64,000 nt of DNA, taken from contig JAOWCC010000442.1 in assembly GCA_030867875.1 (NCBI GenBank), positions 434,001 to 498,000 on the forward strand, read 5' to 3'. Source of the DNA: Actinernus sp. WN-2022 (lineage: Eukaryota; Cnidaria; Anthozoa; Actiniaria; Actinernidae). The position numbers were made by a program, and so were the translations under genes. Positions 5,631 to 56,487 of this stretch are shown one piece after another. Below the pieces are notes generated by a model. It made no database searches and was not told the origin of the DNA. It saw only the letters and a program-made list of their open reading frames with translations. Position 1 is the first letter of the stretch, and each line of letters opens with the position of its first letter.

Positions 5631-6733
5631 CTAACGCCATACATGAACACGATTGTTGTCTATCACCATCACAGTACGGCCATCAGGGAGAACTGTCAGG
5701 TCTACTGGACAATACATCTCACCAAGATTAAAACCATAACTACCGAATGTACTCACACATTCACCTTCCTGTGTTAGCACCTGAACACGATGATTACCAC
5801 AGTCACAGACCAGTAGATAACTGTGTCCATACACTGTAAGGCCACAGGGATAATCAAACTGACCATTACCTTGTCCAGGTGAACCGAACTGACGAACGAA
5901 TTGTCCATTATCATCGGCAAACACACGAATACAATGTTCACCAGGATACGATACAAAATATGTACCGTTAGTGTACGTTATATATTCTGGGTCTGTATAT
6001 TGGTTACCAAACTCTCTAATAAACACTCCATCTCTATTAAACATCTTTACCCCTCGCTTATCTCCCCGACTACACACCACAATATTACCCTGGTTACAAA
6101 CACATACTCCACAAGGACTCTCAACTCTCCCCTCACCAATACTACGAATAAACACTCCATCTACTGAAAACACTTGAACCCTGTTATTACCCGTGTCACT
6201 AACAATAATATTATTATTGTATTTATCTACTGTGACTCCGCGAGGTGTTTTCATTTGTCCTTTTTTGCTTCCCTCACCACCAAGTTCGCGTTGATATTCT
6301 CCACTGCTATTAAATACTTGAACTCGGTGGTTACCGGTGTCCGCTATGAGAACACACTGCTGTCCATTCACTGTTATGCCACATGGCCAATTAAACTGTC
6401 CTCTTCCTTCACCATAAGAACCAAATGTTTTAACAGGTTTCAATTCACTGATAATATTTACAATTCTCTCATCAATGTCGTGTCCTTCAAATGTTGTTGT
6501 AATTCTGTACTGTCCTTCATTCACTGTTTTTTGGTGTCCAATGTTATTGCCGTTTTCCTTTTCATTATAAACAATCTTTACGTCTATTTGCCGTCCTTCA
6601 TTATCCTCCATTTTAACACGTAGTGATTCCTCAGGACAAAAGCACAACTCTCCCATTCTGTTCCTTGTTAATATTCTTAGTTGTATTCCATGAGAAACAT
6701 TTTCTACTTGAACTGTGCTGCGACTCGGGTCGA
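5631..6733 (-). CDS. TRIM2/3/71-like protein, exon 2: filamin domain and NHL beta-propeller
   Basis: This exon encodes the C-terminal half of an RBCC-filamin-NHL protein, a family of RING E3 ligases and RNA/mRNA regulators. The reading frame opens with VDPSRSTVQVENV, an immunoglobulin-like filamin repeat of about 100 residues. It continues with six NHL repeats of the FGSYGEGRGQFNWPCGITV type, each with a G-x-F-x-x-P-x-G core, and ends HVWR-stop. A splice acceptor (TTTTCTCTTCACAG) sits at 6738-6734, and the first codon is split after its first base (G|TC). That is the phase left by the donor of the RING exon at 17785. Joined, the two exons give 740 residues, the usual length of TRIM2/TRIM3. 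Exon reading is secure; joining across 11 kb is inferred from phase, strand and domain order. Confidence 0.9.
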
Positions 6734-8049
6734 CTGTGAAGAGAAAACACAACACAAACCGTTAGTTGAGAAGAGAGAAATAAAGACAGAATTAAACTGA
6801 AATTTATACATGTATTAAACACTTAATATTACACGAAGAGTTCTTATTAATTAGGCTAAGGTAGTATTTCTACACACTAATACAAACTAGTGTTTTTCAA
6901 GTTCTTTACCAAGGTTTCAAGATGAAGATTCTTTTCAAACCGGCAGACTAAAAGTAAACTGATTCAGGATGGCATTTGCTAAAACACCTAACTAATTATT
7001 ACTACAATATGAGCAGGAGAGATTTTCCAGTTGATATATCGCTCTCAGCAGTAGAGAATGATTAGAAAAATAACCGCAGCAGTTCAAACAAAATTCAACG
7101 AGTTCTAACTAAAACAACTTCAATGAAAAAGCTTACCCGGCTATGAAACCTGCACATTGTCGAATTCCTTGTTTGAATGATAATCTGTTTTCACCCGATA
7201 AACTGAATGAAGAAACTATTCTATCTTCATCACGAACACTTCCTGTTAATTTTGTGGACCTACTGACGTCCTTTTGAAGAGATTTTGTTCTTTCTAAACA
7301 CAGAATCAGATTCTGTGAAGAACTCCAACGTTTTGTTTTCGTTTCTTTGGTGAAGTTGAGCTAAGTAAGAAAAGTGAACCAATCACAACACAGGAAAGTG
7401 CACCAATCACAACACAGGAAAGTGCACCAATCACAACGCAGAAACATCCTCGGACGCGTGAGGAAACGAGATTTACGTGTTGCAGTTAAATGGTATCTGT
7501 AATCTGATTGGTGGACTTCGATCCGGTTTTTGCTAGTTATTTTTGTGGTTTAGAATATAATATACCTAGACGGATTAACAAAATATATATTTTGTAAAAA
7601 GAATTGCTTATCATAGAAAATACAAACTATGTCACTTTTGATTAATAAAACATACAAACTCAATCAAAATCACCCTAAAAGCGAGTTCACAAAATGTCGA
7701 TTTATTTTTCTGGGATCTATCTATGAGCCCGGTAGCGAATCACTGGGAACAACATTTTCGAAACAGCCGTGATTCCCCGGTGACTTGATAATCTATCCAA
7801 CTCGTAGCCTGTAGCTAATCACCGTGAAATCTCCGCTAGATTGGTGATAGTTGTCTTTGTTAGAATATTTGACCTACCTCTTGTCTCGAGAAATATGTAG
7901 ACAAAGTATCGAATCCCCCCCCCCCCCCGTAGCCATGTTTTGAAAATTAGTAATAAAAACTACAGTTTTCTGTTAATTTTGCGACAACAGCTATTATTTG
8001 GGGATGAGAAAACAATCCGATCATATTTAATCAAATGAAATCAAATCCG
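6734..8049. other. TRIM intron, 3' part
   Basis: Non-coding. The only structured parts are the CCAAT-containing triplet repeat near 7370-7442 and a run of C at about 7915-7928. Confidence 0.5.
7370..7442. repeat. Three 22-23 bp repeats each with a CCAAT box
   Basis: The unit GTGAACCAATCACAACACAG occurs three times in a row (GTGCACCAATCACAACACAG and GTGCACCAATCACAACGCAG for the others). Clustered CCAAT boxes can bind NF-Y. In this place, inside the long TRIM intron, a promoter role is only a possibility. Confidence 0.55.
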
Positions 8050-8924: not shown

Positions 8925-9386
8925 CTCTCTCTTAAGCGACCACCCTTGGTGCACGGACAAAGTGGTCGCTTACGGGAGGTGGTCGCTTAAGGGAAAAAGC
9001 AACAGAGCCAGAGGTAGCCCAAGTGATTGCTAAACGGATCAGACTTCTAGCACAGCTCTAGCGCGCTGTCACCATAACATAGCTAAGAACAGGAGTTCTA
9101 GCTCTAGTTTTAGTTTCTTATCTGTCAGCGCCATTAAAAATTGAACTTTGTGGTATCTGAGTAATGATGTTCTAAAAATACAGTACAATCTACTTTGGTG
9201 GTCGCTTATTGGAAACAAAAAACAATAGAAATGTCAAGTGTTGAGACTAAAAAGTGTCGCGGTCGCTTAAGAATTTTTGCGTTGCTCGCTTACGAGAGAG
9301 TTTTTACAACAGAATTTGACTGAGAAAAAAACTTCTTTGGTAAAGTGGTCGCTTATGGGAGGTGGTCGCTTACGGGAAGTGGTCGC
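8925..9386. repeat. GTGGTCGCTTACGGGAG repeat block, left part
   Basis: Scattered and tandem copies of GGTCGCTTACGGGAGGTG, with an inverted copy at the left edge (CTCTTAAGCGACCACC, about 8930). The block continues after the LINE insertion at 10910-11012, so the retroelement landed inside it. Confidence 0.7.
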
Positions 9387-10909
9387 ATTCGTATTCGAAT
9401 ATATTGACCGTACCGGTGACATCAATTATTAATTCGACCCTTAGAGAAGAAAAACTGCCCCTTTTATGGAAGAGTGCGAATATCACTCCGCTCCCGAAAG
9501 TAACACATGTTAAAGATATCACAAAAGACCTAAGGCCTATTTCGTTAACACCAACGCTATCTAAAGTGGCTGAAGATTTTGTAGTGCAGGCTCACGTAAA
9601 ACACATCGGTCCTGACCAGTTTGGGTTTTTTCCCAACCTGTCAACCAGTCACGCCTTGATAAGCATGATACACCATTGGTCTAAAGCAACCGATGGGTCA
9701 GGGAATGATGTCAGAGTTTTTGCCTTAGATTACCGGAAAGCTTTTGACCTGATCGACCACACCCTATTAATTAATAAGCTCGCCAACTACGGTATAAACC
9801 CGCATATTTGAACTGGATTTGCGATTTTCTATCGAATAGGCGCCAACGTGTTAAGCTTGCAAGTGATTGCTTCTCAGAGTGGGAGTCAGTGCCAGCAGGG
9901 GTACCTCAGGGTACCAAACTAGGCCCCTGGCTATTCATAGTTATGATCAATGATCTGAATGCCCCATCCGAAAATGGTATTTTCAAATATGTAGACGATA
10001 CCACGATTCACGAAGTAATAAAAAAGAACGAATGCAGCCACGCACAGGAGATAATTAATTGTGTAGAACAGTGGTCTAAAGAGAACAGATTTGAATTGCA
10101 TCCAAAGAAATGTACTGAAGAACTCAAAATCTCGTTCTCTAGAACACCGAGAATTTATGACACCATTACGGTAGGGGAGGCAACTCTTGGTGAAGTAGAC
10201 GAAATTAAAATTCTAGGTGTAACATTACAGAATAATCTTAAATGGAACTCTCATATTTCGGACACCATCAAAAAAGCGTCAAAGAGGCTATACTTCCTAG
10301 TTCAGCTTAAGCGCGCTAATGTTTCTGCAGACGAACTTGTCAAATTTTATACTGCCTGTATTCAATCTGTGTTGTTATATGCCAGCACGGTATTTCATTA
10401 TAGTCTCCCAGATTATCTTAGCTGTTCACTTGAACGAATACAAAAACGAGCCCTACGCATTATATATGGATACGATCTTTCATACTCTGACCAGCTTAAC
10501 TTTTCTGGTCTATGTAGCCTTGCTGAACTTAGGTCACAACTCTGCCAGAGTTTATTTCGGAGGATACCGTCGCATCCAGAGGGAAATCTATATGGCCTCC
10601 TACCGTTTAATACAACGCGCCCAACTGTTACCTTAAGGAGTAGAAATCCTATGTGTATACCATCTTGTAAAACTAATAGATATAGAAACACCTTTATAAT
10701 ATCGGGCGCAAATGATTACAATAACAATTGTAAGTAACTACAATCGATGTATTTAGAAATTTTTAATTGTAATATAGCATTAGTTTAATTAGAGCAGTAT
10801 ATAGTGTTTCTTCTTAAAACTTAGTTAACTTATCTAGAACCATATTAATGTAAATCTCCGTAATTCAGTTTTTGCTGTAAGTGAGAAATATTTGTAATAA
10901 ACGATCTAT
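9387..10909 (+). pseudogene. 5'-truncated non-LTR retrotransposon, reverse transcriptase
   Basis: Two adjacent frames together cover the palm and thumb of a LINE reverse transcriptase of the L2/CR1/jockey group. The first (to 9808) has the motif ITKDLRPISLTPTLSK and catalytic motif A, ALDYRKAFDLID. The second (from 9808) has motif B, AGVPQGTKLGPWLF, and the catalytic YVDD box. The frame changes at about 9805-9810 (CATATTTGAACTGG), so the enzyme cannot be made in one piece. The 5' part (endonuclease, ORF1) is missing, as usual for LINE insertions, and the 3' end carries AATAAA. The 18-bp repeat CTTACGGGAAGTGGTCGC flanks both sides (9369-9386 and 10910-10927). It lies in a related repeat, but the GGGAAG variant supports a true target duplication. 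Confidence 0.85.
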
Positions 10910-17770: not shown

Positions 17771-17784
17771 AAAAGATTAGTTAC

Positions 17785-18904
17785 CTGCACAGCTTGAAAT
17801 CACCAACTTCCCAACGTTTAGAGCTTCATGGACGTTGTCACTAGTCTTGTAATACACTGATGGACTTTCTCGTAGTTGTGGCCTTTGTTTCTCATGTGTG
17901 ACCAGCAGTTCTTGTCCACGCTGAGCAGTAGTTGACTGGGTTTGCAAAACCTCGGTTTTCAGGTTTCTATTAACTATACCCTCTACGTGTTCCACATAAC
18001 TTGTCAGCTGACCAATCTTCAGCTGCAAATCTTCCTGAAGGACGCTATGCGAGGTTTCTTGTTTGTTTTGTACCTCGTCTATCTTTGCCACCACTTCCGC
18101 CTCGTGTTCTCTCAACTTGCGAATTGCAGCTTCAACGCTCTCGTGCACTTCGCTTCGAGCTAAGTCTAATTCTTTTTGTGTATCAGCCAACTCGTTCTGT
18201 GAACTGGTCAGTACAGTATGACAATATGTAACTGCCTTCTTTATGCGTTCGGCTTGTTCGATCATAGCTGCTTTCGCTTCTTCTGCTGCCTCCTCCATGC
18301 TTGTGATATCGTGTGTCTTGTGAGTTAGCGTCACACACTTCTGGCAAACGCACTTTTGGCATGTTTTTGTCCTACAAAAGTATTCCAGTCGGTTGTGTTC
18401 ATGGCTAACTTCCTTACAGTACATGGGTCGTTGTAGGAAATCTCGAACATCTTCCGACTTGAATTCGCGTAGCGGGATGATTCGATGATTTCGTGTAATT
18501 TTGACTTTTCTGTGTAGCTCTATGCATTGTGCACACAGAAGGTCACTGCAATCAGAACAAAATGCACAGACGACCACAGCTTCCTCGCAATTACCACACA
18601 CGGTTCTTGGGCTTTCCTGACTGGAACTGGCAGTTTCCAAGGCTGTGTACAGCTCCAGTAAACCAGCCAGGTAGAATGATGCTCGCAGATTTGATGGATC
18701 TCCATTCAGCAGCTCCACTACCGAACGGCACTCGGGACATGTGAAGGGCTGGTGGTTTTTATGGCACGTTCCCAACCAACTTGTGATACAGTGTTGGCAA
18801 AAATTGTGTAAACACGGGAGAGTTTTTGGATTCGTAAAAACCTCCCCGCATATGGCACACTGTAACTTTGCAGAAAATTCTCTCAGGAGGTCTTCGAACC
18901 CCAT
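17785..18904 (-). CDS. TRIM2/3/71-like protein, exon 1: RING, two B-boxes, coiled coil
   Basis: N-terminal exon of the TRIM gene. I choose the start MGFEDLLREFSAKLQCAICG at 18904, because cnidarian and vertebrate TRIMs usually begin a few residues before the RING; an in-frame ATG 90 bases upstream also exists. A C3HC4 RING spans about residues 16-62 (CAIC, CLHNFC, CPEC). B-box 1 follows at about 100-145 (CGNC, CAFC, CAQC) and B-box 2 at about 165-205 (C-H-E-H and HKTHD). A heptad-rich coiled coil runs over about 210-330. The exon ends at a donor (GCAG|GTAACT) at 17785 in phase 1, matching the acceptor at 6733. The RING predicts E3 ubiquitin ligase activity and the NHL propeller predicts RNA or protein target binding. 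An orthology call between TRIM2, TRIM3 and TRIM71 is not possible from the sequence alone. Confidence 0.92.
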
Positions 18905-19337
18905 CTTTTCTTTGCGTTGTTTCAATGTCAGCGTCTTGCCCAGACTTTGTGGCAGAATGCCTCTGCGTAATTTCTTATACCTTGTGAACAACACGTGATC
19001 TAGGCGTGTGGATCTCTAGTTACCATGGATTAGAAAGTTGCTGTCAGGAGGGGTAAACTAATGAACAGCTCTTGAAAGAAGCGCGTTTAATAGTAACTCG
19101 TCTTTAAGATATTCTCCTTGAAAAGAACTGAACTTTCAAAGTTAAAGTAAAGATTGTGATTTAGATTACAAGAAATGGCTTGAACGTTTCGTTTAAATAT
19201 CCATAGAGTTGATTGTGGTACGTCTTACAAAATTTGCTATACTTTGGCTACAACAACTGTACTAAGACACCACAGAATCCGCTTAGACCCAAATGGGAAT
19301 CAGATTTTGCAGGGTTTCACGCTTTTCGAGCGATCTA

Positions 19338-24550: not shown

Positions 24551-24583
24551 TCACTGATCTAAGATCTTGAAGAAATACTCCAC
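24551..24583 (-). CDS. NME7: NME7 last coding exon
   Basis: After the acceptor TTTCTGTAG the exon reads VEYFFKILDQ-stop, matching the conserved C-terminus of NME7 (human ends in a similar YFFKILD motif). The stop codon is at 24553-24551. The exon starts in phase 0, matching the end of the preceding exon at 25240. NME7 is a two-domain nucleoside diphosphate kinase of centrosomes and ciliary doublet microtubules. Confidence 0.9.
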   Translation of the reverse strand: MEYFFKILDQ

Positions 24584-25239: not shown

Positions 25240-25347
25240 CTCCAACACTCCATCTTCTGGTAAATCTGTACAATGAACTGCATTCATTATTTTATCCTTC
25301 CCAAACTTTGCCCTGAGAGACCTCGGTCTCAAGTGGCGTGCTATTTC
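25240..25347 (-). CDS. NME7: NME7 exon, second kinase domain C-terminal part
   Basis: A 108-bp, 36-codon exon bounded by acceptor TTTTATTGTAG and donor GAG|GTGAGT. It reads EIARHLRPRSLRAKFG, then MNAVHCTDLPEDGVLE. This is the conserved end of NDK domain B of NME7, including its histidine in AVHCTD. Phase 0 on both sides, continuous with the exons at 26100 and 24583. Confidence 0.95.
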
Positions 25348-26099: not shown

Positions 26100-26201
26100 T
26101 GGGTCTGCTGGCCCAACAAATTCTCTGAAGGCTTTGGGTGCATCCGGCCCTCTTATCTCCAGAGCAAGACAAGGACCACTACACAGCTCCACAACCATGC
26201 T
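26100..26201 (-). CDS. NME7: NME7 exon, second kinase domain middle
   Basis: A 102-bp, 34-codon exon between acceptor TTTCTCTCCAG and donor CCA|GTAAGT. It reads SMVVELCSGPCLALEI, then APKAFREFVGPADP. This is the NME7 domain B core, with SGPC and FRE-x-x-GPADP conserved in the family. Phase 0 on both sides. Confidence 0.95.
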
Positions 26202-26790
26202 CTGGAGAGAAAGACAAAATACGAACATTGAAATGACAAGATTTTCAAATTGTCAGCTGGAGATACAAGCTGTTAAGCATGGTCAAATCGTAATAAGAAA
26301 CATTGAAATGGCTTAATTATCAAGTGACCGAATCTATTTCAATCTATGTTCTCCTTTAAATTTGATGCTGTTCAAAGAAGAATTTAAATCTTTACTAACA
26401 GTTTCTAATATTGCTTGAATCTTTAAGGGCCTGTCAATATATTCTTAGTGCCCTGCTTAACGTGCAACGTATGTTTAGGGTGGAGGGGGCATTAAGACCA
26501 AACAGTTTCGGAAATGAGATGGGGGAGGGGTTCATGCAACCTTCAACGATAAAGACTGATGACTGGCCATGTGACACAAATTAGTCCCCACAATTCTTCA
26601 ATGCATGGAACCCCAAACATCACATAATTAAATGTCAATTTGGAGGGAAACTTTTAAATTGAATCTAACATTTATTTTCCTTGTACAATGCTCATTGTTA
26701 TAATAGTAGCTGCAATACGCTAACACAGAATAAAGCTATGGTATGTGAGCCAGGAAAAAAAGCAATAGGCTGTACATCTTATGAACATAC

Positions 26791-26859
26791 ATTGTACTCG
26801 TTGACCACTCCCTTATACACTTCGTGAAACTCTTCTGCATTAGCTCTCTCCAAATGGAA
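26791..26859 (-). CDS. NME7: NME7 exon, second kinase domain (3' copy of a duplicated exon)
   Basis: A 69-bp exon, 23 codons, between acceptor CTTGTTAACAG and donor AAT|GTATGT. It contains ERANAEEFHEVYKGVV, aligned with the conserved NVEEFYEVYKGVV segment of NME7 domain B. Phase 0 at both ends, so one copy joins the exon at 26201. Inclusion of both copies would keep the frame and insert 23 extra residues. Confidence 0.93.
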
Positions 26860-26907
26860 CTGTTAACAAGAATGTAAAACAATAGGCTGTACATCTTATG
26901 AACATAC

Positions 26908-26976
26908 ATTGTACTCGTTGACCACTCCCTTATACACTTCGTGAAACTCTTCTGCATTAGCTCTCTCCAAATGGAA
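26908..26976 (-). CDS. NME7: NME7 exon, second kinase domain (5' copy of a duplicated exon)
   Basis: Identical in sequence, splice sites and phase to the exon at 26791-26859, 117 bp upstream in gene direction. Either copy could be used. Two copies in one mRNA would duplicate a helix-containing segment of the kinase fold, which would probably disturb it. Confidence 0.88.
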
Positions 26977-27720
26977 CTGTTAACAAGAATGTAAAACACG
27001 TCAGGTTTTAACTTGGGTTGTGTGCAAAAAGGGCCTAAGTGACTCTTCATCGTATTCTAAATTCTCACTTAGAAACAAAGAAATTGGAGGAGAATTAGAA
27101 TGTGATCAGGAGACACTTATGCCCTTTTTGCCCACAGCCCTTTAATTATGTTACTGGCTATTAAAGTGCCAAAATGCCAAGGCCTCATTTATTATACAAA
27201 AGCATTTTTTTCTACACATCCATGTTATAAATGTATTTGGCCCTTTTATCAGTGAGTTTACCAAATATTTTGTACAAATCAGAAATAGTTTCATTCGCAA
27301 GGAGAAAGGAATGGCCTTTTGTTGGCCTCCTGTGACATCACACAATTAGCATATTGGAATCTCTATAACTCAGAGATGCAATACTCTTGACAATCAATGA
27401 ATATTTTACCATTCACCTATTTAATTGATGTACAATCGATTTTAATGGTAAAAAAGTTGGGATTATATGCATATTAAAACTTAACACAAATTTAATACAG
27501 CCAGACACATGTTCTGATCTAGGGCAGTTTTTGATTGAGCATTGAAAGTAATTTGGTGATAGCTCTACACTAGACCCAAACATTAGTTTTGTATATCACC
27601 CAATCAATTTTTGTTTTAGCGAGAATTATCCATGATTGCATTTACTTCACGAATGCAGATGTCGTGATTGGTTCAAGTAACGTCAATCATGAATTAGTTC
27701 AGCTTGTGATTGGCTCACTA

Positions 27721-28224: not shown

Positions 28225-28323
28225 TTATGTTTTTCACTTACTCCCATGATTGGTTCTGTAATAACTGCTTTGGTTTTGGTTTATAACATTGAATCAAAAA
28301 CCACTCTTGACAATGTCACTCAA

Positions 28324-29555
28324 ATGGAAATATATTTTCAAGTTGTTCTACGTTTTGGACACCTGTGGTACCATTAGAATCTGCATCATGAGCACCATAA
28401 TCTGTTACTGACATGGTGTAGTGCTGATTAATGGAAATATCTTTTCAAGTTGTTGTATGTTTTGGATACCTGTGGTACCGTTAGAATCTGCATCATGAGC
28501 ACCATAATATGTTACTGACATGGTGTAGTGCTGATTAATGGAAATATCTTTTCAAGTTGTTCTATGTTTTGGATACCTGTGGTACCATTAGAATCTGCAT
28601 CATGAGCACCATAATTTGTTACTGACATGGTGTAGTGCTGATTAATGGAAATATATTTTCAAGTTGTTGTATGTTTTGGATACCTGTGGTACCGTTAGAA
28701 TCTGCATCATGAGCACCATAATCTGTTACTGACATGGTGTAGTGCTGATTAATGGAAATATATTTTCAAGTTGTTCTACGTTTTGGATACCTGTGGTACC
28801 ATTATAATCTGCATCATGAGCACCATAATCTGTTACTGACATGGTGTAGTGCTGATTAATGGAAATATCTTTTCAAGTTGTTCTATGTTTTGGATACCTG
28901 TTGTACCATTAGAATCTGCATCATGAGCACCATAATATGTTACTGACATGGTGTAGTGCTGATTGATGGAAATATCTTTTCAAGTTGTTCTATGTTTTGG
29001 ATACCTGTGGTACCATTATAATCTGCATCATGAGCACCATAATCTGTTACTGACATGGTGTAGTGCTGATTAATGGAAATATATTTTCAAGTTGTTCTAC
29101 GTTTTGGATACCTGTGGTACCATTATAATCTGCATCATGAGCACCATAATCTGTTACTGACATGGTGTAGTGCTGATTAATGGAAATATCTTTTCAAGTT
29201 GTTCTATGTTTTGGATACCTGTGGTACCATTAGAATCTGCATCATGAGCACCATAATATGTTACTGACGTGGTGTAGTGCTGATTAATGGAAATATCTTT
29301 TCAAGTTGTTGTATGTTTTGGATACCTGTGGTACCATTAGAATCTGCATCATGAGCACCATAATATGTTACTGACATGGTGTAGTGCTGATTAATGGAAA
29401 TATCTTTTGAAGTTGTTCAATCTATGTTTTGGATACCTGTGGTACCATTAGAATCTGCATCATGAGCACCATAATCTGTTACTGACATGGTGTGGTGCTG
29501 ATTAATGGAAATATCTTTTGAAGTTGTTCTATGTTTTGGATACCTGTGGTGTAGT
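28324..29555. repeat. Tandem array, 107-bp unit, about 11.5 copies
   Basis: The unit begins ATGGAAATATCTTTTCAAGT and contains ACCTGTGGTACCATTAGAAT and GCATCATGAGCACCATAAT. Starts at 28324, 28431 and 28538 show the 107-bp period. A few copies have small indels (for example near 29410). The array is in the NME7 intron between the exons at 30873 and 26976. Confidence 0.95.
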
Positions 29556-30872: not shown

Positions 30873-30908
30873 CATTTGCAGTGCAGAAACCTCAAAACCT
30901 TGTTCTTG
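30873..30908 (-). pseudogene. NME7: NME7 exon, 5'-truncated
   Basis: Twelve codons ending GFEVSALQM followed by donor ATG|GTAGGC. They align with the GFEISAMQM segment of NME7 domain B and join in phase 0 to the exon at 26976. The upstream part of this exon should encode about ten residues of the kinase helix (a GxLGKI-type motif), but is absent. The coding match stops at 30908, and at 30909 the 1.04 kb duplicated block begins. The preceding in-frame codons run into TGA. A weak acceptor (CTTTCAAG at 30911-30904) could rescue the frame with loss of those residues. Confidence 0.75.
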
Positions 30909-31950
30909 AAAGTACCATCACATTCTTGGGCAAGAATTAATTAATCATGGTCAATTAGCGATATATTATACAAAAAAATGTAGCTATAAATCGAGGATTT
31001 AAGTAATCCTCAAATCCGAGGATAAATAACTAGCACTACCCTTATTACAAGGACTGTGCGATGCATTATCTACAGTCAATAACTGGATGATATTCACCTT
31101 CTGCAACAGCATGTGGCTTTACAACACAGAGAGTGCAATCAGACAACTGGGCTGTGTTCTGTCTTCTGTGGCAAAAGAAAAAGTCCACTTCCTGCAAGAT
31201 AAGGAAAAACATGAGGATTAAATTATATATACTTAAATTACCTTTTTGGAGGCATTTTATTCAATCTATGTATGTACATGTTCACAAAGCAGCAACACTC
31301 TGTAACACGTACACTCAAAGTTCAAAATATTAGGATTTGGGATGCAAAATATCCTCCTAAAATTTGCAAAAATAATGTAAAAATAATGTTGACTTCCTTT
31401 TAATTAATAGATTTGGAAAATGTCATTGTGCCCTGGCCTATATAATACAAGTTAGGAGTATAGTTAAACTTGTTGAACATGACAGGATTCAAGGTCAGTT
31501 TGCATAGAGCACTGAAATAATTTAATTTATCATTGGAAACGAAGGAAAAGATAAATTACCATCATTTGCATCTAAGAACATGTGAGGCGAAAACATGTCC
31601 TAATGCAATGCCACTTTAGTAAGTAACAGTTACCAAGAATTTGAGAGTGATATTGAATTGTTTTTGGGAAATCGGCTTTATGAAGCTGAAAAAATTATGA
31701 ATGCATTGCATGGCTGTGTGACATCTGACAGAATGACATCAGCAAAGATTGCCCTCTACTGTTATATTTAGTACCTTATCTGCTGATTCAGTCATGTCTG
31801 AGCCATGAGCAGCATTCTTTGTGTTATCTAGACAGTGTATTAAGACAAAGATTGCCCTCTACTGTTATATTTAGTACTTTATCTGCTGATTCAGTCATGT
31901 CTGATCTGAGCCGTGAGCAGCATTCTTTGTGTTATCTGGACAGTGTATTA
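30909..31950. repeat. 1.04-kb direct duplication, copy 1
   Basis: 30909-31950 matches 33513-34554 at a constant offset of 2604 bp with only a few substitutions (for example TTACC against GTACC near 31240/33844). It contains one NME7 exon (31098-31191) and the first two units of the exon minisatellite. Confidence 0.95.
31098..31191 (-). CDS. NME7: NME7 exon, interdomain and start of second kinase domain (copy 1)
   Basis: A 94-bp exon between acceptor TATCTTGCAG and donor GAAG|GTGAAT. It reads EVDFFF, then CTLCVVKPHAVAEG. This is the NME7 junction between the kinase domains (an E-x-x-FFF motif) and the first strand of domain B, whose KPHAV motif is family-defining. Entry phase 0, exit phase 1. 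The next expected coding piece is the truncated exon at 30873-30908. A second copy is at 33702-33795; because 94 is not a multiple of three, using both would shift the frame. Confidence 0.93.
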
Positions 31951-33031
31951 AGACAAAGATTGCCCTCTACTGTTATATTTAGTACCTTATCTGCTGATTC
32001 AGTCATGTCTGAGCCGTGAGCAGCATTCTTTGTGTTATCTAGACAGTGTATTAAGACAAAGATTGCCCTCTACTGTTATATTTAGTACTTTATCTGCTGA
32101 TTCAGTCATGTCTGATCTGAGCCGTGAGCAGCATTCTTTGTGTTATCTGGACAGTGTATTAAGACAAAGATTGCCCTCTACTGTTATATTTAGTACCTTA
32201 TCTGCTGATTCAGTCATGTCTGAGCCGTGAGCAGCATTCTTTGTGTTATCTAGACAGTGTATATTAAGACAAAGATTGCCCTCTACTGTTATATTTAGTA
32301 CCTTATCTGCTGATTCAGTCATGTCTGAGCCATGAGCAGCATTCTTTGTGTTATCTAGACAGTGTATTAAGACAAAGATTGCTCTCTACTGTTATATTTA
32401 GTACCTTATCTGCTGATTCAGTCATGTCTGATCTGAGCCGTGAGCAGCATTCTTTGTGTTATCTAGACAGTGTATTAAGACAAAGATTGCCCTCTACTGT
32501 TATATTTAGTACCTTATCTGCTGATTCAGTCATGTCTGAGCCGTGAGCAGCATTCTTTGTGTTATCTAGACAGTGTATATTAAGACAAAGATTGCCCTCT
32601 ACTGTTATATTTAGTACCTTATCTGCTGATTCAGTCATGTCTGAGCCGTGAGCAGCATTCTTTGTGTTATCTAGACAGTGTATATTAAGACAAAGATTGC
32701 CCTCTACTGTTATATTTAGTACCTTATCTGCTGATTCAGTCATGTCTGAGCCGTGAGCAGCATTCTTTGTGTTATCTAGACAGTGTATATTAAGACAAAG
32801 ATTGCCCTCTACTGTTATATTTAGTACCTTATCTGCTGATTCAGTCATGTCTGAGCCGTGAGCAGCATTCTTTGTGTTATCTAGACAGTGTATATTAAGA
32901 CAAAGATTGCCCTCTACTGTTATATTTAGTACCTTATCTGCTGATTCAGTCATGTCTGAGCCATGAGCAGCATTCTTTGTGTTATCTAGACAGTGTATTA
33001 AGACAAAGATTGCCCTCTACTGTTATATTTG
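31743..33031. repeat. Exon-bearing minisatellite, main array
   Basis: Units of 103, 105 or 108 bp, each made of a 53-bp (or 58-bp) NME7 exon and a 50-52 bp spacer with splice sites. Length differences come from GTGTATTAAG against GTGTATATTAAG in the spacer and from a 5-bp insertion (TCTGATCTGAG) in the exon. The array breaks off at 33031 inside a spacer. Because the 105-bp unit is a multiple of three, a continuous minus-strand frame of 35-residue repeats runs through several units (32953-32459). Confidence 0.95.
31775..32985 (-). CDS. NME7: NME7 exon with catalytic histidine of first kinase domain, 12 tandem copies
   Basis: Each unit has acceptor CACTGTCTAG, a 53-bp exon reading (D)NTKNAAHGSDMTESADK, and donor AAG|GTACTA. 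It aligns without gaps with the NME7 domain A segment around NAAHG, where H is the phosphate-accepting histidine. The exon enters in phase 1 (first codon G|AT) and leaves in phase 0, matching the next exon at 31191. Copies start at 31775, 31878, 31986, 32089, 32197, 32302, 32405, 32513, 32618, 32723, 32828 and 32933. Those at 31878, 32089 and 32405 have a 5-bp insertion giving AAHGSDQT-stop. Since 53 is 2 modulo 3, only one copy (or four, and so on) keeps the frame. Which copy is used cannot be told from sequence; 31775 is followed by the ancestral-looking intron. Confidence 0.85.
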
Positions 33032-33080
33032 GCTAAAGTGAACAAGTTGCACCGTAAATTTGTTGTCGGTAAGTGGTCGG

Positions 33081-33230
33081 CCGACAGCTTACCAACAGCT
33101 TACCGACAGCTTACAGACAGCTTACCAACAGCTTACCAACAGCTTACCGACAGCTTACCAACAGCTTACCAACAGCTTACCGACAGCTTACCGACAGCTT
33201 GCCAACAGCTTACCGACAGCTTACCGACAG
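33081..33230. repeat. 11-bp tandem array
   Basis: About 13 copies of the unit ACAGCTTACCG/A (for example GACAGCTTACCAACAGCTTA). Because 33 bp is three units, open frames with an 11-residue period arise by chance on the plus strand; they are not genes. Confidence 0.95.
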
Positions 33231-33701
33231 TACTAGACGAATGGCTTCCACAGGGAATTTTCGTCTCAAAGTAAAATCCAGCTGCATGATAGAGTACAAA
33301 TAGGGAATTTTCGTCTCAAACTCAAAGTGTGCGTATGTGCGTACAGGCATTAACTCGCTACGCTCTTGATATCACGTAGCTTTCCAATGTTAGAACGAAA
33401 TTTGTCAATAGCATATATATTCTTACTACGTTGTAGATAGTTGGATATTGATGAAAATAGTGTACTCATTATATCTGTCTTTTCTTCTTTGCACCAGCCT
33501 CAGCTCTCCTTTAAAGTACCATCACATTCTTGGGCAAGAATTAATTAATCATGGTCAATTAGCGATATATTATACAAAAAAATGTAGCTATAAATCGAGG
33601 ATTTAAGTAATCCTCAAATCCGAGGATAAATAACTAGCACTACCCTTATTACAAGGACTGTGCGATGCATTATCTACAGTCAATAACTGGATGATATTCA
33701 C

Positions 33702-33795
33702 CTTCTGCAACAGCATGTGGCTTTACAACACAGAGAGTGCAATCAGACAACTGGGCTGTGTTCTGTCTTCTGTGGCAAAAGAAAAAGTCCACTTC
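33702..33795 (-). CDS. NME7: NME7 exon (EVDFFF / KPHAV), copy 2
   Basis: Identical in reading frame, acceptor and donor to 31098-31191. In transcript order it lies between two copies of the histidine exon (34379-34431) and the 12-copy array. Splicing could therefore join histidine exon to this exon and then either continue or skip to the second copy. Confidence 0.85.
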
Positions 33796-34378
33796 CTGCA
33801 AGATAAGGAAAAACATGAGGATTAAATTATATATACTTAAAGTACCTTTTTGGAGGCATTTTATTCAATCTATGTATGTACATGTTCACAAAGCAGCAAC
33901 ACTCTGTAACACGTACACTCAAAGTTCAAAATATTAGGATTTGGGATGCAAAATATCCTCCTAAAATTTGCAAAAATAATGTAAAAATAATGTTGACTTC
34001 CTTTTAATTAATAGATTTGGAAAATGTCATTGTGCCCTGGCCTATATAATACAAGTTAGGAGTATAGTTAAACTTGTTGAACATGACAGGATTCAAGGTC
34101 AGTTTGCATAGAGCACTGAAATAATTTAATTTATCATTGGAAACGAAGGAAAAGATAAATTACCATCATTTGCATCTAAGAACATGTGAGGCGAAAACAT
34201 GTCCTAATGCAATGCCACTTTAGTAAGTAACAGTTACCAAGAATTTGAGAGTGATATTGAATTGTTTTTGGGAAATCGGCTTTATGAAGCTGAAAAAATT
34301 ATGAATGCATTGCATGGCTGTGTGACATCTGACAGAATGACATCAGCAAAGATTGCCCTCTACTGTTATATTTAGTAC

Positions 34379-34539
34379 CTTATCTGCTGATTCAGTCATG
34401 TCTGAGCCATGAGCAGCATTCTTTGTGTTATCTAGACAGTGTATTAAGACAAAGATTACCCTCTACTGTTATATTTAGTACTTTATCTGCTGATTCAGTC
34501 ATGTCTGATCTGAGCCGTGAGCAGCATTCTTTGTGTTAT
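34379..34539 (-). CDS. NME7: NME7 histidine exon, two upstream copies
   Basis: 34379-34431 is a normal 53-bp copy (NAAHGSDMTESADK). 34482-34539 is the 58-bp variant with the 5-bp insertion and an in-frame TGA shortly after the histidine. These are the 5'-most copies in transcript order. The acceptor of the first is CACTGTCCAG. Upstream exons for the DM10 domain and first half of kinase domain A were not found between 34555 and 44246. Confidence 0.8.
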
Positions 34540-34596
34540 CTGGACAGTGTATTTATTGTCTTTATTTTAGGTCAGTAATTACTCTAAGTCAGTTGA

Positions 34597-50910: not shown

Positions 50911-51168
50911 TCACGGCAAAATCAATTTGTTCACGGCAAAATCAATTTGATTCACGGCAAAATCAATTTGATTCACGGCAAAATCAATTTGATTCACGGC
51001 AAAATCAATTTGATTCACGGCAAAATCAATTTGATTCACGGCAAAATCAATTTGATTCACGGCAAAATCAATTTGTTCACGGCAAAATCAATTTGTTCAC
51101 GGCAAAATCAATTTGTTCACGGCAAAATCAATTTGTTCACGGCAAAATCAATTTGTTCACGGCAAAAT
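50911..51168. repeat. Left subterminal array, 20/21-bp unit, about 13 copies
   Basis: Unit TTCACGGCAAAATCAATTTG. Copies 3 to 8 carry one extra A (ATTCACGG...). In direct orientation here and inverted at the other end; likely transposase binding sites. Confidence 0.95.
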
Positions 51169-51287
51169 CTGAAGACCGGGCCGGGAGGCATGGAAACCAT
51201 CTAAAGTCCCATGATGCACCAGTAACACTCGAGATGGCATATCAAATTTCGTTCTGGTTTATATACGCCTCGTGGTGTGATATCGCG

Positions 51288-55008: not shown

Positions 55009-56148
55009 CTAGTGTCCATTAACAGCTACATCAGTCAGTTTTTTATAGAGTTCAACAGCTCCTCTCCAGTCATTAGGCACCTCTAATCTCAATTCATTCA
55101 TTACATATTGAAAATACTCATGGTACTCTGTCGTATCATAACTGACATCAACCAGATGAGAGTAAGCGTAATTCAAAGCAGCAGTCCGTACAGGAACAAT
55201 AAGGCCACCAGTCCCACCATGAAAATCTGGTATTGAATATAGAGAATCAGGCCTCCCACTGACTGTGTCAAACCTAGATTTTCTTATGTAATGCGTGTTC
55301 CAATTTTCCTTTACTTCATTAAGCCCCACCTGAAGTACCGTTCCAAAGCAGAACCACAAACACTCCTTCTGGACAGGATCAGCAATATTAAGATCTCCTT
55401 CATCTGTCATATCCTTGAAAAAAGACATCCACCAAGATGTCCAGTTTCTCCTTAAAAAGCTCCACCACCCCTCAATACGTTGGTTTCGGTAAGAGGGGAC
55501 ATATTTATGGGTATCCGGGTTATCCCTAAAAAAGGAATGAATACCAGCCATAATCCCATTTTCTGTGCCCAAGTCAGTATATAAGTCTAGAGGACATCCT
55601 CCTTGCTTGCGAACAGCATCCAAATAATAGGCAGCGATGTTGTCAGGTAAGTTGTTGGAGCGTGTGACATACAGCCAAAGTATTTTCCTGCTATATCCAT
55701 CGATACAACCATGGATAGGGAAGCCAAACGGCTTCAGTTTATCGTAACCGTCAGCATGCCAAACCTTATTCGGTCCAGGGCAGACGTACTTCCGTCTTCG
55801 TAGCCTGTGTGCTCTTCTCGCTTCAACTCCTTCGGGATCTACTTCTCGGACAATTTCCTCGACTATTCCTCTGGGGACTCGTATCCCCCTCCGCTGGAGA
55901 GCGTGCCAAATGCTGCGATAGCCAACAGACGATCCCGGTCCATCCATGATTTCGATTATTACATTTCTTAATTGCTGGGGATCGAACTCCACGTTATTTC
56001 TATGAAGGTTATACTGCTTCAGCTTTCTCTTGAGAGTACTAAGACTCATATTTATGTTGTGTTTCGTTCTTAACATGTGGAGAATTTCTTGATACTCGTA
56101 TCCATCACAAAACAACGTCTCCAACAATGTCTTCTCATCGTCCGCCAT
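55009..56148 (-). CDS. DDE (rve-type) integrase/transposase
   Basis: An uninterrupted 379-residue frame starting MADDEKTLLETLF. Residues 1-60 form a helix-turn-helix-like region (EYQEILHMLRTKHNINMS, STLKRKLKQY). Residues 70-110 resemble the second helical domain of IS3-type integrases (GYRSIWHALQRRGIRVPR). The catalytic core has D133 in VWHADGYDKL, D192 in YTDLGTENG and E226 in NQRIEGWW, a D-D-33-E spacing. The typical GCIDGYSRK strand lies between the first two. The frame is intact with no stop, in contrast to the HECT gene. The start codon is about 75 bp inside the right subterminal array, so that array may also act in its promoter. It probably mobilises the element by binding the terminal arrays. 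Confidence 0.92.
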   Translation of the reverse strand: MADDEKTLLETLFCDGYEYQEILHMLRTKHNINMSLSTLKRKLKQYNLHRNNVEFDPQQLRNVIIEIMDGPGSSVGYRSIWHALQRRGIRVPRGIVEEIVREVDPEGVEARRAHRLRRRKYVCPGPNKVWHADGYDKLKPFGFPIHGCIDGYSRKILWLYVTRSNNLPDNIAAYYLDAVRKQGGCPLDLYTDLGTENGIMAGIHSFFRDNPDTHKYVPSYRNQRIEGWWSFLRRNWTSWWMSFFKDMTDEGDLNIADPVQKECLWFCFGTVLQVGLNEVKENWNTHYIRKSRFDTVSGRPDSLYSIPDFHGGTGGLIVPVRTAALNYAYSHLVDVSYDTTEYHEYFQYVMNELRLEVPNDWRGAVELYKKLTDVAVNGH

Positions 56149-56243
56149 CTTAATTTTCGACGATGGGGACTGGGGCGACTGTGTAAATCCGCTGACACTG
56201 GAGGCTAGTCCATGCGGGAACTAAACCAAATTGATTTTGCAGA

Positions 56244-56487
56244 TTTTGCAGATTTTGCCGTGAACAAATTGATTTTGCCGTGAACAAATTGATATTGCCG
56301 TGAACAAATTGATTTTGCCGTGAACAAATTGATTTTGCCGTGAACAAATTGATTTTGCCGTGAACAAATTGATTTTGCCGTGAATCAAATTGATTTTGCC
56401 GTGAATCAAATTGATTTTGCCGTGAATCAAATTGATTTTGCCGTGAACAAATTGATTTTGCCGTGAACAAATTGATTTTGCCGTGAC
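56244..56487. repeat. Right subterminal array, 20/21-bp unit, about 12 copies
   Basis: Inverse of the left array: CAAATTGATTTTGCCGTGAA, with 21-bp versions (GTGAATCAAATTG) clustered near 56380-56440. One copy reads GATATTGCC. The minus-strand frames through it (for example 56593-56150) are translations of the repeat, not genes. Confidence 0.95.

Follow-up and report, generated by a model that had tools for sequence, protein, structure and literature searches.

Can a gene offer its transcripts 14 equivalent versions of one catalytic exon? The question is raised by a 64-kb stretch of DNA from the sea anemone Actinernus sp. WN-2022 (contig C1165, positions 434001-498000; hereafter "the window"), in which the initial annotation placed 14 minus-strand copies of the active-site exon of NME7 (nucleoside diphosphate kinase 7), a conserved cilia gene, and proposed that the transcript might choose among them. 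The reading that we favor, with a probability of roughly 0.78, is that the window contains a broken NME7 paralogue, one member of an amplified NME7-TRIM family with exon-containing minisatellites that are tolerated through redundancy. The window copy is probably a tolerated relic and not a working splicing switch, and the question of whether one exon is selected out of many belongs to fuller copies elsewhere in the genome.

Active-site exons in a broken copy of NME7

Tandem Repeats Finder (TRF) detected a 105-bp unit repeated 12.3 times at 31743-33030 (95% matches, score 2295), and a strict unit scan recovered 14 units of 103-108 bp on the minus strand, each holding the exon that we term exon A. 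The near-identical units, with their acceptor, 53- or 58-bp exon and GTACTA donor, were therefore as first described, although only 12 of them are contiguous: the other two stand apart at ~34347-34553, and between both groups lie a copy of exon B, an intron and an 11-bp minisatellite (33081-33230), such that the 14 do not form a single minisatellite. Exon A measures 53 nt in ten units and 58 nt in four, the longer form being frameshifted by a 5-bp insertion. GTACTA directly follows the exon in 14 of 14 units and AG directly precedes it in as many (TAG in 11 and CAG in three, counted by eye), and the GT...AG interval between adjacent units amounts to 50-52 nt. Together with one base of the preceding exon, the 53-nt form encodes DNTKNAAHGSDMTESADK (D N T K N A A H G S D M T E S A D K), and ten of the 14 units combine this canonical peptide with both AG and GT. 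The exon had been correctly recognized as a segment of NME7, but its true start lies 11 bases before NAAHG.

The best match of the assembled peptide is NME7 of Actinia tenebrosa (74% identity), with Nematostella at 73% and named corals at 64-69%, such that sea anemones match best. Within exon A, the motif DNTKNAAHGSD is identical in Actinia NME7 and belongs to the active-site segment of NDK domain A; we take the histidine in NAAH to be the phosphorylated one. Exons 2, 3 and 4 and several exons of NDK domains A and B could be read in other copies, thereby covering the DM10 region and the two NDK domains, and homology to NME7 is secure. That the active-site exon of domain A resides in a tandem unit of exon plus mini-intron, as originally claimed, was borne out.

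The remainder of the gene is incomplete at this locus. No exons upstream of A were found in the 64-kb window by tblastn with the Actinia protein as query, a DNA search of the window returned no match to exon P, which precedes exon A, and a whole-genome search that located exon 2 at 12 loci elsewhere yielded no match to it on C1165. Exon C is truncated and lacks its acceptor, the full 65-nt version being present at 12 other loci. We rejected the possibility that a micro-exon is missing between exons B and C, as other copies carry an intact 65-nt exon C and the window copy breaks inside it, and we set aside a coding role for the 107-bp minisatellite located between exons C and D, which we treated as intronic because no NME7 residues are absent between these exons. 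As assembled, the window copy is broken and is predicted to be unable to make NME7, because its upstream exons and part of exon C are deleted. The idea of a normal NME7 transcript that chooses among 14 exons is thus not supported here, given that no exon precedes A in the window, that exon 2 is absent from the matches on C1165 and that exon C has no acceptor. The other options offered by the initial annotation, a tolerated satellite or a broken allele, fare better, except that "allele" does not apply to what is one of many paralogues.

The reading frame tells which numbers of exon A could be included. Among eight combinations tested, for which other copies supplied exons P, A and B, the frame remained open only with one 53-nt exon A, which is the behavior required of a mutually exclusive cluster and had been anticipated from the exon length. 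Stop codons resulted from zero, two or four 53-nt exons, from one or two 58-nt exons and from mixed pairs, contrary to the suggestion that some larger numbers might restore the frame. The features of the window copy are collected in Table 1.

Table 1. NME7-related and neighboring features, in positions of the window
Feature	Position	Strand	Basis
Main array, 12 units of exon A + mini-intron	31743..33030	-	TRF + strict unit scan
Upstream pair of further exon A units, with exons of 58 nt (first) and 53 nt (second)	~34347..34553	-	Alignment + strict unit scan
NME7 exon B copy 1 (EVDFFF...HAVAE), 94 nt, AG/GT	33702..33795	-	Alignment
NME7 exon B copy 2, same sequence as copy 1	31098..31191	-	Alignment
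NME7 exon C remnant, 38/65 nt, no AG at match start	30873..30910	-	Alignment to other copies
Tandem pair of 117-bp units; exon D (69 nt, FHLERANAEEFHEVYKGVVNEYN) + 48-nt mini-intron in each	26759..26998	-	TRF + homology
NME7 exon E	26100..26201	-	Homology / tblastn
NME7 exon F, 3' end placed by hand at GT donor	25240..25347	-	Homology / tblastn
NME7 last coding exon (VEYFFKILDQ + stop)	24551..24583	-	Homology / tblastn
Breakpoint; upstream side matches sequence just 5' of exon 3 in the C790 copy	34552..34556	-	Alignment (L046)
Junction; copy 1 intron B-C meets sequence upstream of the exon A array in the C790 copy	33492..33496	-	Alignment (L045)
Deletion breakpoint; compared to L029, the start of exon C and ~1.1 kb of the preceding intron B-C are gone	30905..30910	-	Alignment
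Minisatellite of 11.4 107-bp units separating exons C and D; several other NME7 copies have it too	28323..29550	-	TRF + alignment
11-bp minisatellite, 13.6 units, matched in the C790 copy too	33081..33230		TRF + alignment
TRIM-type open reading frame (RING + B-box), co-amplified with NME7	17777..19015	-	Domain search + genome search

An amplified family and its exon arrays

We searched one assembly, comprising 1,390,003,549 bases in 1772 contigs, and found exon F at no fewer than 47 loci spread over 26 contigs, with 109 of 420 candidates scored. Exon B was located at 38 loci (scoring 40 of 43 candidates), exon D at 40 (40 of 54 scored) and exon 2 at 12 (12 of 12 scored), and exon A came to 34 by hand count, corresponding to 32 clusters of which two merge neighbors. 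Alignments of longer flanks revealed that introns accompany the exons across these copies. The genome search with exon F found no NME7 outside the amplified family; weak matches on C1312 and C1380 (33-57% identity) look like other NDK genes. Most copies seemingly lack the 5' part of the gene, exon 2 being present at 12 loci versus 47 for exon F, with the 3' exons conserved.

The TRIM-type open reading frame (ORF) listed in Table 1 returned 187 candidates in the genome, and the 40 that were scored were all 96-100% identical and situated mostly on contigs that also bear NME7. A comparison by hand placed 13 of these 40 downstream of an exon F of NME7 in the same orientation, at distances of 6.7-13.9 kb, and another four further off within 27 kb; for the remaining 23, no listed exon F lies nearby. 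The copies thus share introns and a neighboring gene, as is characteristic of segmental duplication. Copy number, neighbor order and a common orientation within most contigs support the amplification of a block containing NME7 and TRIM, mostly head to tail, and NME7 seems to have been carried along in the expansion of a TRIM cluster.

Arrays of exon A are not confined to the window. More than one unit occurred in 15 of the 27 copies examined (14 in the window, 14 on C790, four in each of three copies, and two or three in the others), although the two units of L048 are 1.6 kb apart and hence not in tandem; among seven exon A loci outside the 27, six had one match and one had two. Copies with one such exon, a form that the initial annotation had proposed to look for in related genomes, are present elsewhere in the same genome. 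In the other 14-unit copy, on C790, the match to exon F is split between two frames, and no exon P was found in the DNA fetched for this copy.

Exon D, within a 117-bp unit, is repeated at 16 of its 40 loci, reaching ~53 units on C1121, 24 on C436, 22 on C654 and 18 on C849, numbers that represent span divided by 117, with the unit count confirmed only at C654. Near-identical copies can differ widely in this respect: L043 and L044 (C868 and C1121) are 99% identical over 5.4 kb and have ~1 and ~53 units, and the copies at C734:1.54M and on C849, with 97.5% and 98.9% identity over two long alignments, have ~1 and ~18. Such pairs may be recent paralogues or alleles, and tandem units whose number differs between close relatives are what defines a minisatellite, or variable number tandem repeat (VNTR). 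The ~53 exon D units on C1121 occupy positions 135404-141610 in a copy that keeps exons 2, P and B and has four exon A units, one of them without a proper acceptor. In L016, L018, L019 and L021, the first exon A unit reads GCTACTGAC (GAT in L019) instead of GCTGCTCAC, replacing the codon of the active-site histidine. Other minisatellites were encountered in L033 (77 bp) and in L029 (56 bp at 305-798, 102 bp at 6211-6530), and array formation therefore seems frequent in the NME7 family.

Multiple exon A units do not mark the broken copies, a notion that we rejected once seven of the nine exon-2-bearing copies examined (out of 12, with L040 assigned to this class by its 58-kb distance) proved to contain them. 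At least one canonical exon A was present in all nine, and in 13 of 18 copies without exon 2. An apparent loss of exon B from the copies with four exon A units was likewise dismissed, as exon B sits just outside the pieces first compared.

How such arrays might be spliced depends on the length of their mini-introns, which come to 50-52 nt for exon A in the window and to 57 nt in L041, with 48-nt mini-introns separating the exon D units of L037. Because a limit of ~50 nt between 5' splice site and branch point has been proposed on steric grounds (PMC7969005), the joining of adjacent units would probably be prevented, leaving one unit, or units that are not neighbors, to be used. Exon D, with 69 nt, is in frame in any number. 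In copies that span the gene from exon 2 to its 3' exons, a repeated exon (two to four units of exon A, up to ~53 of exon D) might then be expressed as "one of n" interchangeable exons, with sub-threshold mini-introns blocking the joining of neighboring units while spare exons accumulate and decay harmlessly. We regard this as doubtful; if true, one-of-n expression of identical competing exons would constitute a new class of gene architecture.

Elsewhere in the window, arrays of 20-21-bp repeats in opposite orientation (50911-51169 and 56251-56486) flank ORFs, with an integrase core domain encoded at 55009-56220, and possibly represent a DNA transposon with repeated subterminal sequences. A reverse transcriptase ORF (Pfam RVT_1) beside 17-bp repeats at 9344-10737 probably belongs to an element of the long interspersed nuclear element (LINE) type, and an NHL-repeat ORF is situated at 5631-6761.

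Selection and alternative explanations

Across the 11 copies that could be aligned from exon P to exon B, exons A and B were variable in two of 146 columns, compared to 189 of 1114 columns in introns (Fisher p=5e-9), and after removal of intron columns near gaps the contrast with 82 of 613 variable columns persisted (p=3e-6); shared ancestry renders columns less than independent in this test, and the contrast is large. Because they are nearly invariant relative to introns, exons A and B appear to have been under selection for much of the history of the family. Exon P was variable in seven of 66 columns and has acquired a 4-bp insertion in L029 and L035, two of the 15 ten-kb copies having this exon; L030 was rejected as a further case of altered length, its match being shortened by a substitution near the exon end.

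One explanation for this pattern is that many 5'-truncated copies make a shorter functional product, containing the second NDK domain, or a regulatory RNA, and that selection keeps exons A and B in them. It would accommodate the presence of exon 2 at 12 loci versus exon F at 47, the near invariance of exons A and B in a sample of 11 copies of which nine lack exon 2, and the less clearly constrained exon P with its 4-bp insertions. However, conservation may predate the loss of the 5' exons, exon B has changed in length in L031 and L035, and the window copy is devoid of part of exon C, making this explanation unlikely.

Dozens of dispersed copies with introns, together with transposon-type ORFs in the window, could also be read as the work of a transposon, for example a Helitron-like element, that captured a piece of NME7 and spread it. 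This we consider very improbable in view of the distances involved, as nine of the 12 loci with exon 2 have it 37-62 kb away from exon F and one has it 82 kb away (by hand), and the TRIM neighbor is often kept in order and strand. Moreover, at 18 loci the similarity upstream of the unit continues for up to the whole 900 bp compared, a comparison that did not include a systematic search for element ends. A small dispersed transposon carrying the exon was set aside for the reason that the longer flanks are multi-exon gene copies with introns.

It is scarcely credible that only one gene or a few exist and that the many copies arose as artefacts of assembly or as unpurged haplotypes, as might be supposed because numerous copies are located on small contigs or within the first 2.7 Mb of C734 and some pairs share 99% identity: introns of the copies differ by up to 12%, several copies reside on the same contig, mostly in one orientation, and the published assembly, probably the one used here, was made with HiFi reads and purge_dups (PMC10598428). 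Least credible of all is that the window array functions as a mutually exclusive cluster from which the transcript takes exactly one of ten intact, near-identical 53-nt exons, since the ten canonical units, the open frame with one copy and the hindrance of joining by 50-52-nt mini-introns are set against the lack of exons upstream of A in the window and of an exon 2 match on C1165, a truncated exon C without acceptor, a doubled exon B, and ten intact units that encode the same peptide and hence leave nothing to choose among.

Several observations also weigh against our preferred reading of the window as a broken and tolerated member of a redundant family. The strong conservation of exons A and B extends to copies that lack exon 2 (nine of the 11 aligned), such that some 5'-truncated copies may still be in use; multiple exon A units, numbering two to four in the exon-2-bearing copies noted above, are not limited to dead copies. 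Exons 3 to P of the window copy could sit out of order somewhere outside the window. Not all contigs show a uniform orientation, C942 having exon F on both strands, and the copy counts come from a single assembly in which some contigs could be unpurged haplotypes. Finally, the microhomology described below was read by eye from few copies, and splicing behavior was deduced from sequence.

Origin of the arrays and comparison with known systems

In copies with a single unit, ...CTTTGTCTTAATAC... is found in the upstream intron and ...CAATCTTTGCTGATG... in the downstream one, with L035 and L031 reading CAATATTTG, and the junction of the exon A unit falls in a CTTTG common to both flanking introns. 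A tree of 21 pieces extending from exon P to just after exon A, some of them from the same place and present twice, and excluding the window and C790 arrays, which lack P, grouped the multi-A copies together. The single-A copies L031 and L035 lie inside this group, and units may therefore also be lost at times.

These observations are consistent with a sequence of events in which a block with NME7 and a TRIM-type gene was amplified, mostly head to tail, and short stretches holding one complete small exon became minisatellites inside the redundant family. The exon A unit would have been seeded by duplication between the two CTTTG microhomologies, as the junction sequence suggests, and the array would then have grown by unequal exchange, to which the length differences between near-identical copies point. 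In the window copy, the array would have reached 12+2 units, exon B would have been doubled, and the upstream exons and part of exon C would have been deleted, the extra units being tolerated as other copies exist. In copies extending from exon 2 to the 3' exons, the mini-introns probably leave too little room for simultaneous use of the two splice sites, and one unit would be used.

NME7 would thus have become part of a large amplification alongside a TRIM gene, in which at least two of its exons turned into minisatellites. Near-identical copies with one versus ~53 exons amount to a natural experiment in which the handling of tandem identical exons and very short introns by the spliceosome can be studied, and the same copies bear on how exon duplication starts. 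A practical consequence is that automated annotation could label such a broken paralogue with repeated exons as an NME7 gene. Among the literature matches listed, which consisted of titles and abstract openings, no title concerned NME7 amplification or exon arrays in sea anemones.

In the apolipoprotein(a) kringle and similar intragenic VNTRs, a block of intron plus exon is arranged in tandem and varies in copy number, as do the units described here. Apolipoprotein(a) repeats are kilobase-sized, in frame and translated, whereas the exon A repeats are ~105 bp long and break the frame in the multi-copy combinations tested.

The NME7 of Actinernus resembles that of other sea anemones in protein, domains and conserved active-site segment, but Nematostella vectensis has one Nme7 entry in a table of PMC2978717, whereas the Actinernus family includes at least 47 loci with exon F and 12 with exon 2, and contains exon-bearing minisatellites. 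The mutually exclusive exons 4a and 4b of OGDH (PMC7969005) offer a likeness in that neighboring exons are kept from being joined by a branch point close to the 5' splice site, which may hold here as well. The OGDH exons give differently regulated products; in Actinernus, the exons are near-identical, the window copy is broken and the branch point is only presumed.

The closest parallel for the family as a whole is provided by variable internal tandem repeats in human genes, which sit in genes hosted in segmental duplications according to De Grassi and Ciccarelli (2009; PMC2812944). In both cases, minisatellites grow in large, recently duplicated families, their number differs between near-identical paralogues, and exons and splicing are altered. 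The human repeats in that study have units averaging 30 bp in four copies and lie within exons or at exon-intron borders, whereas the 105- or 117-bp units of NME7 hold a complete internal exon with both splice sites and reach 14 or ~53 copies. Variable minisatellites in segmentally duplicated genes are thus known from that work (PMC2812944), and what is new here are units that hold whole exons.

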